A program made the position numbers and the translations under genes. From Bacteroidales bacterium (GTDB taxonomy: Bacteria; Bacteroidota; Bacteroidia; Bacteroidales; P3), in the NCBI GenBank assembly GCA_017479705.1, contig JAFVCA010000037.1, forward strand, positions 1-64,000: a stretch of 64,000 bases of DNA, given 5' to 3'. The notes under the pieces were generated by a model. That model worked only from the letters and a program-made list of their open reading frames with translations. It searched no databases and was not told the origin of the DNA. Shown here piece after piece: positions 17,097 to 61,375 of the stretch; the first letter of the stretch is position 1, and every line of letters begins with the position of its first letter.

Positions 17097-17124
17097 ACCC
17101 TATACCGTGTCGGGCGCAACCTTT
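17097..17124 (-). promoter_or_regulatory. Leader motif, copy A
   Basis: On the minus strand AAAGGTTGCGCCCGACACG, then GTATA, then GGGT, ending 7 bases before the ATG. GCCC and GGGT can pair (one G-U) around an 11-base loop starting GACACG. Same layout as copies at 26219, 26756 and 58582. Confidence 0.75.
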
Positions 17125-17404
17125 GTTCACGGCTCGGTGAGGTCAACCATTAACAAGAAAAAGTGGAGCCATCCAGTTCGCCCTATCTCGGATAGTTGGG
17201 CTTGGACTCCCATTGTTTGTTGCATAAAGAAGATAAGGTTTCTTGAATAACCCCACTTGCCGTATGTCGCTAAAAAACGAATACAATACAAGTGAGAAAT
17301 CATTTGCCTTATTCCGTCTTTATGCTTTAGTGAAGTGTCCAAGTTCACTATCCACGGAATAGAGAAAATGCGCTTTCTCTCGGTCTTTCTACCTGTTGAA
17401 AGAC
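17125..17404 (-). ncRNA. Structured 5' leader of the three-gene operon
   Basis: Between the promoter and copy A. On the minus strand it can form GTCTTTC/GAAAGAC at the very 5' end (plus 17383-17404), AGAGAAA/TTTCTCT (17361-17380), TAGTGAA/TTCACTA (17328-17350) nested inside ATTCCGT/ACGGAAT (17311-17360), and a CTATC-CGA-GATAG hairpin inside GCCC/GGC near 17190. All stems are perfect. An ORF crosses the region but starts upstream of the promoter. Confidence 0.5.
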
Positions 17405-17408
17405 GGTG

Positions 17409-17439
17409 CAAAGATACAAACTTTTTCTCATTCGGCAAA
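17409..17439 (-). promoter_or_regulatory. Promoter of the three-gene operon
   Basis: Minus strand: TATCTTTG (plus 17409-17416) and TTTG (plus 17436-17439), spacer 19. It is back to back with the plus-strand promoter at 17446-17476, six bases apart. Confidence 0.85.
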
Positions 17440-57916: not shown

Positions 57917-58140
57917 TCACCATCCGTTTTGTGGCAATGCCCTGCGAGGTTCGCCGTACTCGCCTGTCTGGTTGCAATAGCTGCGCACCAAGGCGAAATA
58001 GATGGTCCCCACCTCAAACCCCGTCAGGGTCACGGTGGGGGCGGTGACGGTGGTGATTGTGAAGTCCTCCCATCGGTCGGTCACCTTGCCGAAAGCCACC
58101 TCCCATGGGCCGCCGTCGCCCGAATCCCATATATTTATTG
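57917..58140 (-). pseudogene. Fragment of a secreted FN3-domain protein
   Basis: The C-terminal part of a fibronectin type III-like domain as in type IX-secreted proteins: WDSGDGGPWEVAFGKV, TVTLTGFEVGTIYFALVRSYCNQTGEYG, ending LPQNGW. It breaks off near 58140; the sequence to the right (58141-58204) is AT-rich and not coding-like, and the IS1595-type transposon follows. Probably what is left of a larger gene. A TATATTTG at plus 58196-58203 may be an accidental -7. Confidence 0.55.
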
Positions 58141-58204
58141 AATTGTGTAATAGTTTGATTTTTAGTTTATTTTTTTGTATAATTCTCCTACACTGCAAAT
58201 ATAA

Positions 58205-58237
58205 ATATTTTTGGTAACTATATATTTCTTTACACCA
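58205..58237 (+). repeat. Left end of IS1595-type transposon: target duplication and TIR
   Basis: ATATTTTT (58205-58212) is the 8-bp target duplication; the element begins GGTAACTATATATTTC and the TIR runs to about 58237. Confidence 0.82.
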
Positions 58238-58247
58238 TTTTTTTACT

Positions 58248-58270
58248 CTACAATTTATAACGAATTGTAG
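58248..58270 (+). terminator. Hairpin with T-run at the left of the transposon
   Basis: CTACAATT (58248-58255) and AATTGTAG (58263-58270) pair perfectly, then GCTTTTTTA. It could insulate the element's promoter from outside transcription. Confidence 0.6.
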
Positions 58271-58321
58271 GCTTTTTTATTGCGTTGTGAAAAAAGTTTT
58301 TCGCATTTGAAAGAAATGTTG

Positions 58322-58329
58322 TATCTTTG
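58322..58329 (+). promoter_or_regulatory. -7 element of the cargo transcript
   Basis: TATCTTTG; the -33 region has TTTTTC, not TTTG. Transcription would start near 58335, at the first base pair of the leader's first hairpin. Confidence 0.7.
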
Positions 58330-58333
58330 CAGT

Positions 58334-58608
58334 CGGTTTACGAAGAGTTGGTAAACCATAAATTGTTAATAACGAAGCGTTATGCTCGACTTGCTGATAG
58401 GAACGTGAGAAATTTCTATGAGAATGCAAGGTTGGTATGGCGGTTCGCGCATGTATATAGCGTGGACTGGTATCCATTTCTGCATTCAAGGTAATTCTCA
58501 CGACCTCTATCAGAGAAGTGGCGTAAACAGGCCACGCTTCTTTGATATTAAAACCGCTGTCTATTGGTGCTGGGGCAGTTAAAAGTTGCGCCCGACACGA
58601 AACAGGGT
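58334..58608 (+). ncRNA. Structured 275-base leader RNA before the cargo lipoproteins
   Basis: Five hairpin units can be drawn. H1 GGTTTAC/GTAAACC (58335-58357). H2 ATAACG/CGTTAT (58369-58383). A long arm of stacked stems: CTGATAG/CTATCAG (58394-58400, 58507-58513), CGTGAGAA/TTCTCACG (58404-58411, 58495-58502), AATGCA/TGCATT (58423-58428, 58481-58486), ATGG/CCAT (58437-58440, 58474-58477). H4 AGAAG+TGGC with GCCA+CTTCT (58514-58541). Last the GCCC/GGGT motif stem. No ORF spans it; I know no matching RNA family. Confidence 0.6.
58582..58608 (+). promoter_or_regulatory. Leader motif, copy D
   Basis: AAAGTTGCGCCCGACACG, AAACA, GGGT. Ends 8 bases before the ATG at 58617 (and 2 before that at 58611). 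By spacing with the other copies the second ATG is preferred. Confidence 0.75.
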
Positions 58609-58616
58609 ATATGCTT

Positions 58617-59045
58617 ATGAGAGCAAAACGATTTTGGTTGCTGCCGTCAGTAGTTGCAGTCTTACTAACAGGCTGTGAATCTTCGTCTTTTTCCTCTAAG
58701 ACGTATAGGACAATAGAAACAAATAGAACGATTGTGTCTGAGCCTCTCGTTGTTGAATATGATACCATATACGATAGTCGAGTCTCAGACACGTTGATTT
58801 ATAAAACCACCGAAAGTTCACGCTCCAACAATTATTTGTATGAAAAACGCCTTGCAGTAGCCGATTGCATCAGACACCACAACGTTGATGTATTAGTTAA
58901 TGTATGCTATGATGTCAAAGACGAAGATGGAAAGATAATCATTATTGTTTCTGGACTACCTGCGAAGTATAAACGTATTCGACCAGCAACAAAAGATGAC
59001 TTGTGGATGTTACAATTTATCGAAATAAACAATACAAACAAATAA
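58617..59045 (+). CDS. Cargo lipoprotein 1 of the transposon
   Basis: 142 residues from MRAKRF. Lipobox LLTGCES. Middle part Ser/Thr-rich with IVSEPLVVEYDTIYDS; C-terminal part AVADCIRHHNVDVLVNVCYDV, SGLPAKYKRIRP, like Bacteroidales lipoproteins with an A..A..aDvlV strand and a GYPAxYKxFR end, the family that the gene at 26792 also resembles. Start by leader spacing; alternative ATG 6 bases earlier. Next gene 1 base away. Confidence 0.7.
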   Translation: MRAKRFWLLPSVVAVLLTGCESSSFSSKTYRTIETNRTIVSEPLVVEYDTIYDSRVSDTLIYKTTESSRSNNYLYEKRLAVADCIRHHNVDVLVNVCYDVKDEDGKIIIIVSGLPAKYKRIRPATKDDLWMLQFIEINNTNK

Positions 59046-59046
59046 A

Positions 59047-59421
59047 ATGAAGTACATACGTATTTTTGCAGTAATTGCAGCAAGCATGATTTTCTTGCTT
59101 TCATCATGCACAAAAGAGGAAAGTATTAACAGGAATTACACTGTAACATTCAATGGCTCTTACGGCTATTCAACAACCATTAGAGTATTTGAATGTAACG
59201 AGAACGGAGATAAGATTTTCGATACTTCAAGGGATTTTTCACAAGGGGAGACAAAATCATTCACCGCACAGCCAGGCACTAAAAAAATGAAACTATACAT
59301 TCATACCGAAAGTATGTTTGGCGATATTCGCGGTTATGTACAAAGAGTGTACTACCTCACAACAAGCCCAACATCAATAGTTGTGGATGACAACACAACT
59401 ATTGGTCCCAATGAGCCTTAA
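59047..59421 (+). CDS. Cargo lipoprotein 2 of the transposon
   Basis: 124 residues. Lipobox LLSSCTK. Beta-rich (TVTFNGSYGYSTTIRVFE, TKKMKLYIHTESM), short. No family recognised. Follows lipoprotein 1 by one base, so same operon. Cell envelope, role unknown. Confidence 0.7.
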   Translation: MKYIRIFAVIAASMIFLLSSCTKEESINRNYTVTFNGSYGYSTTIRVFECNENGDKIFDTSRDFSQGETKSFTAQPGTKKMKLYIHTESMFGDIRGYVQRVYYLTTSPTSIVVDDNTTIGPNEP

Positions 59422-59424
59422 TTA

Positions 59425-59458
59425 AAGAAAGAGCCGTCATTCCGACGGCCCTTTCTCT
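59425..59458. terminator. Terminator between lipoprotein 2 and KilA-N gene
   Basis: AGAAAGAGCCGTC pairs with GACGGCCCTTTCT around ATTCC (mismatch near the base). Convergent genes share it; the KilA-N stop codon is inside the stem. Confidence 0.88.
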
Positions 59459-60375
59459 TCGTTGGGGTTATAGTTGAGTGCTTTTGTCAATGCCTTGTCG
59501 AAATCTGTTTTATTCTCCTCTTCAATATATGTTTTGTCATCAAGTTTCTTTAGTGATTTAATATAGTCGTATTGTTCCAAATGAGCACGTTGTTGTTCTG
59601 CCGTTTCCTTTAATACTTTGTATCTTGTTTCTCTATCCATCCCCTGTTTCATCAATATTGCATTTAATGATTCGAGGTTTGATAAGATGGCCAAGTCATT
59701 AATACTCGCCATGTCTCGGATATTCTCACCGTTTAACACTCTTTCTGGATTAAATTCACGCCAAGATTTAGCGGTACAGCCAAACATTATCAGATTAAGC
59801 ATATCCGCCTCGCTTGCGTAAATCCATTCGTCCTTTTGACTACTTGATTTATGTGGAATGACGTATTTCTTTACAGCGTCAGTATGCAATGTGTAGTTCG
59901 CTTTTGATAGCACTCTTTTGACATTCCACTCGAGATTGTATTGATTATTTTCTACTTCTTTTAACCGCTGATACTCCTTTACGATGTATAACTGGAATAC
60001 AGGACTTAGCCACATGCCAAAATTAAAAGCAATGTCTTTATGGGCATAGGTGCCGCCATATTTGCCGGAACGTGAGACAAGACCAATGGCGTTTGTAGAA
60101 TTAATCCATTTTTGAGGAGAAAGCGTAAATCTGTTTAAACCAGCTTCTTTCATAAACCCCTCGAATTCGAGGGGTTTAAAATTTGGGTTATGCAAAATCT
60201 CCCATGTTCCGAGATATTCCATTGTGTTTCTATTTCTTATCCAATTCCCTATAACGCCGGACGGTTCATTGTCTTTATATCTCGCCATATCAGTAAGGCA
60301 AATATAGTCTTCTTCGTTTTGCATTGTTATGGCTATTTCCAGACCTTGAACTTTTAGAATTGATGTTTTAACCAT
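59437..60375 (-). CDS. KilA-N domain protein, passenger of the transposase
   Basis: 312 residues. KilA-N DNA-binding domain at the N-terminal half: ICLTDMARYKDNEPSGVIGNWIRNRNTMEYLG, then GKYGGTYAHKDIAFNFGMWLSPVFQLYIV. C-terminal half: charged helices, RETRYKVLKETAEQQRAHLE. Its start overlaps the transposase stop by 8 bases, so the two are one operon. KilA-N proteins are common in phages and as DNA-binding accessory proteins; a role in transposition control is a guess. Confidence 0.85.
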   Translation of the reverse strand: MVKTSILKVQGLEIAITMQNEEDYICLTDMARYKDNEPSGVIGNWIRNRNTMEYLGTWEILHNPNFKPLEFEGFMKEAGLNRFTLSPQKWINSTNAIGLVSRSGKYGGTYAHKDIAFNFGMWLSPVFQLYIVKEYQRLKEVENNQYNLEWNVKRVLSKANYTLHTDAVKKYVIPHKSSSQKDEWIYASEADMLNLIMFGCTAKSWREFNPERVLNGENIRDMASINDLAILSNLESLNAILMKQGMDRETRYKVLKETAEQQRAHLEQYDYIKSLKKLDDKTYIEEENKTDFDKALTKALNYNPNEEKGPSE

Positions 60376-61282
60376 ATATCAGTTGTTTGTATGTTAATCT
60401 ATGTTCTATGTTTCTTAGTAAGAGATTGAATCTACCACACTCTGTATAGTCGCGAGTGTTGTATCTGTACACAAACTCGTCTACATACTTTTGTAAGTGC
60501 GACTTTGAAATGTAGTGATATATTCCAATCTCTCCACGCTTTAATAACGACCAAAAGCCCTCTATAGTATTTGTATAGACATTTTCTCTCACAAATTCAT
60601 ACTCTTTATGCCTGACGATTTCATGTTGGAAGAGTTGTTTGAGGGAGTTGTAGCCGCGCCACTCATCAGTATAGATGATGGCTTGCTTGACAAATCTTAC
60701 CACTTCTGCGGTCAGAGTCTCGCTTGAAGTATCTTTTACCACCATAGCGTTAAGTTTGCCTTTTCGCTCAACCATTCCAAACACAGGGGTCTTGTCTTGA
60801 CCGCTTCTTCCTTGCGAGTGCTCAACCTTTTTGTCAGCATGGCGATTCTTATTCTTACCTCCGACATAGGTCTCGTCTAATTCAACTGTATTGTTGAGGT
60901 CGTTGTTGTTCTCAATACCGAAACACTTTCTGATACGATGAAGCATGAACCAAGCCGTCTTTTGAGTAACGTCTATATCGCGGCTCAACTGAAGTGAAGA
61001 TATGCCTTTCTTGTGAGAAGTGACAAGATATATGGCAACAAACCATTTGCGAAGAGGAATCTTCGTGTTGTCAAAAAGAGTGTTGGTTTTGACATTGAAA
61101 TACTTTCCTGTGTTTTTGCAGCGGTAGCGATTGTTTTTGCACTTATAAACAACCGAAGTCGGGTCGAAAGGGCTTACAACATCACCATCCCAACGCAACC
61201 ATTCAAGATGTTCAATGCAACTTTGCTCATCCTTGAATGTATCCAAAAGTTCAACAACTGATTTGAAGTTAGTTACATCCAT
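60368..61282 (-). CDS. IS1595 family transposase
   Basis: 304 residues. N-terminal zinc ribbon (YKCKNNRYRCKNTGKYF), then the ISXO2-like DDE domain: VELDETYVGGKNK (first Asp), IIYTDEWRGYNSL (second Asp), NTIEGFWSLLKRG (Glu). Catalyses DDE transposition of the element bounded by TIRs at 58213 and 61367. Good promoter just upstream, within 100 bases of the right end. Confidence 0.95.
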   Translation of the reverse strand: MDVTNFKSVVELLDTFKDEQSCIEHLEWLRWDGDVVSPFDPTSVVYKCKNNRYRCKNTGKYFNVKTNTLFDNTKIPLRKWFVAIYLVTSHKKGISSLQLSRDIDVTQKTAWFMLHRIRKCFGIENNNDLNNTVELDETYVGGKNKNRHADKKVEHSQGRSGQDKTPVFGMVERKGKLNAMVVKDTSSETLTAEVVRFVKQAIIYTDEWRGYNSLKQLFQHEIVRHKEYEFVRENVYTNTIEGFWSLLKRGEIGIYHYISKSHLQKYVDEFVYRYNTRDYTECGRFNLLLRNIEHRLTYKQLIYG

Positions 61283-61304
61283 ACTCGTATCTATTTACAA
61301 ATGC

Positions 61305-61336
61305 AAAGATATGAATAATTTTACACATGACAAAAT
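61305..61336 (-). promoter_or_regulatory. Promoter of the transposase operon
   Basis: Minus strand TATCTTTG (plus 61305-61312) and TTTG (plus 61333-61336), spacer 20. Confidence 0.85.
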
Positions 61337-61342
61337 TATTCT

Positions 61343-61375
61343 ATGTAAAAATGTATATAGTTACCATATTTTTTT
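61343..61375 (+). repeat. Right end of IS1595-type transposon: TIR and target duplication
   Basis: TGTAAAAATGTATATAGTTACC ends at 61367 (split here as two overlapping parts, ending TATATAGTTACC); ATATTTTT follows at 61368-61375. Confidence 0.82.

Follow-up and report, generated by a model that had tools for sequence, protein, structure and literature searches.

The 64,000-nt window analyzed here (Bacteroidales bacterium, GenBank assembly GCA_017479705.1, contig JAFVCA010000037.1, positions 1 to 64,000) contains a transposon spanning 58213 to 61365, which holds a folded RNA element, two small cargo genes, a KilA-N domain gene and a transposase gene (Table 1). The original prediction, made from the letters of the window, had proposed a structured RNA inside an IS1595-type transposon, and this location is borne out by the PF12762 transposase, the terminal repeats and a perfect 8-bp duplication. 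No TnpB or IscB family was detected in the four proteins scanned from this element, namely the IS1595 transposase, the KilA-N protein and the two small proteins. Positions 57917-58198 (-) read by eye as a fragment of a larger secreted-protein-like ORF, apparently interrupted close to the transposon's left end.

Terminal repeats and 8-bp duplications that mark the RNA as an IS1595 passenger were found at four loci: the window, L122, L154 and L155. L122 (UBA3816) is a related IS1595-type element with the same RNA, a different lipoprotein gene and a perfect duplication. L154 and L155, whose genomes belong to the window's class but lie outside its order, have similar ends and perfect 8-bp duplications, with RNA and transposase inside. 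L200 has GGCAAC/GGTAAC ends with TTCATTAA flanking both sides (read by eye), and the ends of L203 are similar. By tblastn, a transposase lies near the RNA at six distinct places: the window, L122, L154, L155 (=L176), L175 (=L200) and L181 (=L203). Among 80 loci found by an exact sequence pattern, mostly 8 kb long, only L122 shows one. No IS1595 transposase was found by tblastn at most RNA loci examined, the flank often being ~1.5 kb, and because many of the loci searched had only that much flank, some transposon carriers may be missed. We rejected IS1595 as a universal carrier of the RNA, since the transposase occurs at few loci.

Table 1. Features of the transposon and its RNA element, in window positions.
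Feature	Positions	Strand	Basis or remark
Left 8-bp target-site duplication ATATTTTT	58205..58212	.	identical to 61366-61373
Left terminal inverted repeat, GGTAACTATATA...	58213..58240	.	ends alike in L122, L154, L155
Promoter -7 box TATCTTTG (predicted)	58322..58329	+	sequence; box frequent upstream of copies
5' hairpin GGTTTAC/GTAAACC	58335..58357	+	fold; sequence varies among copies
Conserved RNA core	58372..58543	+	covariance-model R1 match, 161.8 bits
P1 5' strand GAAGCGT, partner 58534-58540	58374..58380	+	paired cells 97.4% (A1), 95.3% (A7)
P1b 5' strand TATG, partner 58522-58525	58381..58384	+	97.2% of cells paired (A1)
PK1 5' strand CTTGC, partner GCAAG 58426-58430	58390..58394	+	family permutation test
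P2 5' strand, partner 58495-58512	58395..58411	+	strongest covariation; A7
P3 5' strand GAAT, partner ATTC 58484-58487	58422..58425	+	family test; window strands placed by eye
P5 hairpin CGGTTCGCGC/GCGTGGACTG	58441..58469	+	95.9% of cells paired (A1)
P2 3' strand	58495..58512	+	A1, A7 pair counts
Alternative local hairpin GTGG...CCAC, terminator-like	58518..58535	+	excludes P1b/PK2
P1 3' strand ACGCTTC	58534..58540	+	A1, A7 pair counts
Hairpin H2, loop GGTGCTG facing core CAGGCC (PK2)	58557..58578	+	by eye; imperfect in window
Short pre-start motif GTTGCGCCCGACACGAAACAGGG	58585..58607	+	motif counts in window and genome
Cargo gene 1, predicted lipoprotein (by eye)	58611..59045	+	without Pfam match
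Cargo gene 2, predicted lipoprotein (by eye)	59047..59421	+	ORF list, family scan
KilA-N domain gene, beside transposase	59437..60375	-	PF04383, E 1.8e-21
IS1595-family transposase	60368..61282	-	PF12762, E 2.9e-43, for 60371-61282
Right terminal inverted repeat	61338..61365	.	end GGTAACTATATA at 61365
Right 8-bp target-site duplication ATATTTTT	61366..61373	.	identical to left copy

The proposed anatomy of the RNA was borne out. The promoter-like box TATCTTTG is present, and all four named stems were located: CTGATAG 58394-58400 with CTATCAG 58507-58513, CGTGAGAA 58404-58411 with TTCTCACG 58495-58502, AATGCA 58423-58428 with TGCATT 58481-58486, and ATGG 58437-58440 with CCAT 58474-58477. No sense ORF of at least 60 aa fills 58334-58608, the stretch said to hold none; an antisense ORF of 171 aa (58277-58792) overlaps it. 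The claim that this stretch folds is likewise upheld, the predicted fold of 58334-58617 reaching -98.7 kcal/mol versus -74.2 ± 4.8 for dinucleotide shuffles (z -5.09), with 0 of 200 shuffles matching it. Some details required revision. The conserved part is the core at 58372-58543 plus a 3' hairpin, not the whole of 58334-58608, and the fold drawn by eye had overlooked the closing stem P1 and the pseudoknots, one of which, PK1 (CTTGC/GCAAG), partially competes with the AATGCA/TGCATT stem. A hairpin precedes the start codon (CCC..GGG, 58591-58607), its distance being 3 bases to the ATG at 58611 and 9 to that at 58617. The 5' hairpin reads GATTTC/GAAATC in many other copies.

Homologues were collected to evaluate this fold. 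A blastn search with 58300-58630 matched 36 of 61 genomes (own genome counted); many copies are 69-81% identical over the core, and a good part of the listed matches cover the promoter end or 3' motif only. The consensus fold was derived from A1, a sequence-only MAFFT alignment of 28 copies. Across its 27 distinct rows and 36 named pairs, 95.7% of 958 cells are paired, falling to 33-50% when partners are slid by 1-3 columns. Two-sided changes affect 15 pairs and 96 cells, compared with 9.5 and 27.5 after shuffling; for further pair types, the real value was reached by 33 of 500 shuffles. A7, the basis of covariance model R2, comprises 52 copies with distant ones added and has 95.8% of 1848 cells paired (slid controls, 33-50%), with two-sided change in 29 of 36 pairs and in 265 cells versus 76.3 shuffled, counts that lean towards the model because A7 was fitted to the structure. 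Covariation is strongest in P2, where two-sided change affects 13 of 15 pairs in A7 and the copies carry such variants as GTGAGAA/TTCTCAC, GTAGGAA/TTCCTAC, CTGAGAA/TTCTCAG and CTAGGAA/TTCCTAG; P1b has one such pair in A1 and four in A7. Sequence retained with pairing lost, the outcome named beforehand as fatal to a structured RNA, was sought among the homologues, and the opposite was found, pairing being kept while sequence changes. The alignments show that the predicted ~170-nt core (P1, P1b, P2 and P5, together with P3 and PK1) retains its pairs via compensatory changes, and the P1-P1b-P2-P5 fold with such changes is present in the R1/R2 leader family. At least one copy, L013, is missing the P1 5' strand.

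The variable helices were assessed by permutation, exchanging the two strands between sequences (60 permutations for PK2, 30 for PK1, P3 and P4), in 83 non-redundant copies (<90% identity) drawn from 131 with enough flank, the window being represented by L122. A separate merging of duplicates reduced 134 copies to 114. At least five Watson-Crick pairs form in P3 in 80 of the 83 copies (permuted 35.2, max 51) and in PK1 in 70 (permuted 47.4, max 54), PK1 reading CTTGC/GCAAG in the window and GTTCTTGT/ACAAGAAC in L153. P4 is weak (25/83; permuted 15.2, max 21). PK2, between the core 3' end and the H2 loop, forms perfect 5-mers in 45/83 (permuted 19.9, max 26), for example GTACC/GGTAC (L021), GAGCC/GGCTC (L014), AACCC/GGGTT (L154) and GTCCC/GGGAC (L156), and under a relaxed rule in 64/83 versus 40.7 (max 49). 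In another 41 copies, taken from two distant families, it did not reach significance (24 versus 18.2, max 24; strict rule, 13 versus 10.6, max 16). H2 is missing from several subgroups, and the window's own PK2 is imperfect, CAG-G-CC facing GG-TG-CTG by eye. These tests show that PK2, as a predicted pairing, can join the core 3' end to the H2 loop before the start codon in many copies.

The family extends well beyond the window. At E 1e-3, model R1 matched 109 of 120 genomes in the genus; in the family, with the genus counted, it matched 152 of 190, in 11 of 12 genera and with up to 14 matches in a single genome. In a phylum sample of 395 genomes it matched 11 (E 1e-4). R2 matched 48 of those 395 (E 1e-5, own genome counted), in 23 of 171 genera and including four genomes outside the class. 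Within the families to which G544 and G215 belong, it matched 97 of 148 and 59 of 121 genomes, respectively; G544 and G215 were themselves among the sources of its copies, and the E-values of both models are rough. An exact pattern gave 82 stretches in named genome records, of which 80 were retained as loci; judged by record title, most are MAGs of ruminant-gut Bacteroidales and Prevotella, and the set includes Prevotella sp. AGR2160 (L090) and Xylanibacter ruminicola SIG140 (L131). Using blastn, the window copy found no match in plasmid or phage records, and distant copies gave nothing for three in plasmids and for one in phages; a narrow search of IMG/VR with one exact pattern also returned no match. 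L059, L133 and L134 each hold two RNA copies, which in L133 and L134 head separate ORFs, and L204:4001-4361 has two back to back, the second weak at 27 bits.

Most copies also share a layout. Of the near copies (n=67, the non-redundant copies other than L152-L170), 60 have the Bacteroidota -7 box TAnnTTTG in the 110 nt that precede the core, where 5.0 were expected from simple shuffles, with a median of 31.5 nt from box start to core. The predicted order of promoter, RNA and ORF applies to most copies: of 133, 125 have an ATG ORF of at least 50 aa whose start lies no more than 150 nt behind the core (median 51 nt), leaving 8 without one. In the non-redundant set, such a start follows 77 of 81 cores. 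The corresponding figures are 47.8% for random positions and 44 of 78 for the upstream side read antisense, a comparison that is lenient because internal ATGs count. The close spacing bears on whether the element might instead be an independent small RNA with its own promoter, freed by termination or cleavage and acting in trans beside an incidental neighbour gene. The promoter box, the strong compact core, the several copies per genome and the few copies lacking a close ORF would all suit such an RNA, but we consider it unlikely given the ORF starts just behind the core and the predicted PK2 pairing that can link the core with the pre-start hairpin in many copies.

The genes behind the RNA are diverse. 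Scanning 118 of 124 distinct downstream proteins (6 left out) yielded 57 Pfam families (E 1e-3), with even the most frequent found in just 4 proteins, and revealed no common pathway among the 118, a point of difference from most metabolite riboswitches. Lipoproteins, by a simple lipobox rule, account for 21 of 66 downstream proteins, compared with a share of 8.6% among the 279 remaining ORFs (100 aa or longer) from the same loci, an almost fourfold enrichment (Fisher 5e-6), and a signal or membrane segment is found in 37 of 66 versus 22.9%. Sigma-70 factors, RibD_C and CD225 proteins also occur. In the two distant families, 124 neighbour proteins from 40 loci (set A9, with 29 of 153 proteins left out) include HTH regulators, redoxins and phage-type integrases. 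At L101:837-4034 the RNA precedes a ZorA2-ZorB2-ZorE2 operon of the anti-phage Zorya type (PADLOC E 1.4e-181, 1.9e-78 and 1.1e-84). A general link to defence genes was rejected, as PADLOC on the 118 proteins gave this ZorA as its one clear case and otherwise weak or generic hits; four apparent MzaA hits proved to be sigma-70 proteins, for which RpoS and RpoD gave the best NCBIfam E-values.

A short motif, GTTGCGCCCGACACGnnnnAGGG, stands just before start codons at 17098(-), 26221(+), 26758(+) and 58583(+), these four window matches with at most 3 mismatches comparing with 0.01 expected. The genome has 9 matches at up to 1 mismatch, versus 1 for the backward control. This motif follows only some RNA copies, CSGACACG being present in 15 of 131 leaders. 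A different leader of ~290 nt, at window positions 17098-17410 (-) and at L149 and L150, ends in the same motif. It has a promoter box and sequences of the kind GAGAAAGCGCATTTT and GGGAGTC.A.GCCC, as well as GGATGGCTCCACTTT; read by eye, the hairpin that follows has a GAGCC-type loop with which this leader's GGCTC can pair. We regard it as a possible second class of leader that shares the 3' platform.

Comparison of flanks revealed exchange of cargo behind the RNA. Six loci (L127, L107, L169, L091, L114 and L098) occupy one chromosomal site, L114 being recognized by its upstream flank and L098 solely by the downstream one, and the genes behind the RNA differ except for related ones in L107 and L091. 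At a second site (L020/L119 and L034/L119), flanks are 91-95% identical and the RNA only 68-72%, and here RNA and gene seem to have moved as a unit. Since the two sites differ in this way, the RNA sometimes stays while the gene changes, and sometimes both seem exchanged. The same RNA thus precedes unrelated genes, also at one site across species and in IS1595-type transposons.

Both sites would also be expected of a folded DNA recombination or insertion site, akin to attC, through which cargo cassettes are exchanged. We judge this most improbable, given the character of the stems: 227 of 1771 pairs are G-U (12.8%) and these are kept, G-U even being the commonest pair at three P5 positions in A7, and the opposite strand could not form the same fold because its equivalents are A-C. 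Correspondingly, opposite-strand model matches, where reported, score 19.8-28.1 bits, compared with 106-175 bits for full-length sense matches and 72 for the truncated L023. Furthermore, attC is located 3' of its gene, whereas this element follows a promoter box and precedes its gene. The core does not behave as coding sequence either: whichever frame is read, no more than 4-10 of 83 copies are open throughout, and core length varies from 152 to 186 nt with the three phases evenly filled (26, 31 and 26 of the 83).

The chief rival to a cis-acting leader is attenuation, in which the GTGG...CCAC hairpin and a U-rich tail would stop transcription early and P1, sharing the 3' strand, would serve as antiterminator. 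The terminator-like match at 58518-58535 does overlap the P1 3' strand, and 24 of the 67 near copies have at least 7 T in the 10 nt around and after the P1 end. Five consecutive T, on the other hand, occur in only 9 of the 67, 6 of 16 copies in L152-L170 and 9 of 41 in set A8, so that no conserved U run follows the stem in any of the three sets. H2 and PK2, lying downstream of the supposed stop, would act too late. The hairpin and the P1/P1b/PK2 set are mutually exclusive, with covariation in the latter, whereas the hairpin pairs hardly vary. We rejected intrinsic termination as the main role on account of the weak U tract across copies; attenuation stays only a rival because this run is poorly kept, and we hold it to be doubtful.

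The element matches no known RNA family, in keeping with the original prediction. At gathering cut-offs, two tRNAs were the sole Rfam 15 matches anywhere in the window. With the limit relaxed to E 10, the element returned only mir-29 on the other strand (E 7.3), a meaningless hit, and eight distant loci searched at E up to 5 gave no match at the element. The family is absent from Rfam 15. We recognized no description of it in the open-access literature searched, and Bacteroid* does not appear in the main text of PMC11109978 and PMC8632094, two genome surveys of structured RNAs. Structured RNAs of Bacteroidota have come from comparative genomics before: Table 1 of PMC2864571 lists Bacteroid-trp, Bacteroidales-1 and Bacteroides-1 (RF01692-RF01694) and Flavo-1 (RF01705), which share this origin with our element, though none matches it, and Flavo-1 in L152 (7697-7803) lies away from the element. 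For Flavobacterium psychrophilum, PMC9723704 describes 64 5' regions as structured. A structured RNA within a transposon also has precedent in the RAGATH-18-derived guide RNAs that accompany IS607 TnpB (PMC11061315). From these the present element differs in its IS1595-type transposase (PF12762), in four proteins without a TnpB match, and in an RNA that heads cargo genes, mostly with no such transposase nearby.

Further parallels are orphan riboswitch candidates and other structured 5' leaders, which likewise combine a conserved pseudoknotted fold, a position between promoter (here a predicted one) and start codon and many copies per genome; the element differs in that its downstream genes share no pathway and its switching is a prediction. 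Second-messenger riboswitches of the c-di-GMP type occur in many copies per genome before diverse surface genes. The element resembles them in copy number and in the diversity of surface genes, but has no Rfam match. An RNA that cleaves itself, or is catalytic in some other way, and so shortens the mRNA at its 5' end could account for the large fold, two pseudoknots and many invariant bases; with no Rfam ribozyme match even at E 10, we give this little credence.

Overall, we conclude that the window element is a member of a Bacteroidota-wide family of folded RNAs and probably a cis leader that controls the gene behind it. As a working model, the mRNA would start roughly 10-45 nt before the core, which may sense a small molecule, an ion or a protein. 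In Bacteroidota, translation relies less on Shine-Dalgarno pairing than on leaders that are open and A-rich. A closed core, with P1 and PK2 formed, would hold H2 and so set ribosome access at the start codon, the state of the sensor core being transmitted through H2/PK2. From sequence comparison, then, the leader is predicted to be switch-like, and the cargo genes behind it would likely be swappable, making the RNA a portable control unit into which they plug. More tentatively, we propose a phylum-wide switch RNA for a global signal, such as a second messenger or stress cue, that has been borrowed by mobile, surface and even defence genes. If so, cargo would come and go behind a plug-in controller, and whatever lands there would join one hidden regulon.

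Such a pseudoknotted ~170-nt RNA would mark out a regulon of envelope and mobile genes, most of them unstudied, in common gut and rumen bacteria. The copies and the two covariance models provide ready material for probing and make the ligand question directly testable, and the IS1595-type transposons with their target duplications illustrate one route by which a regulatory RNA can travel with its cargo.
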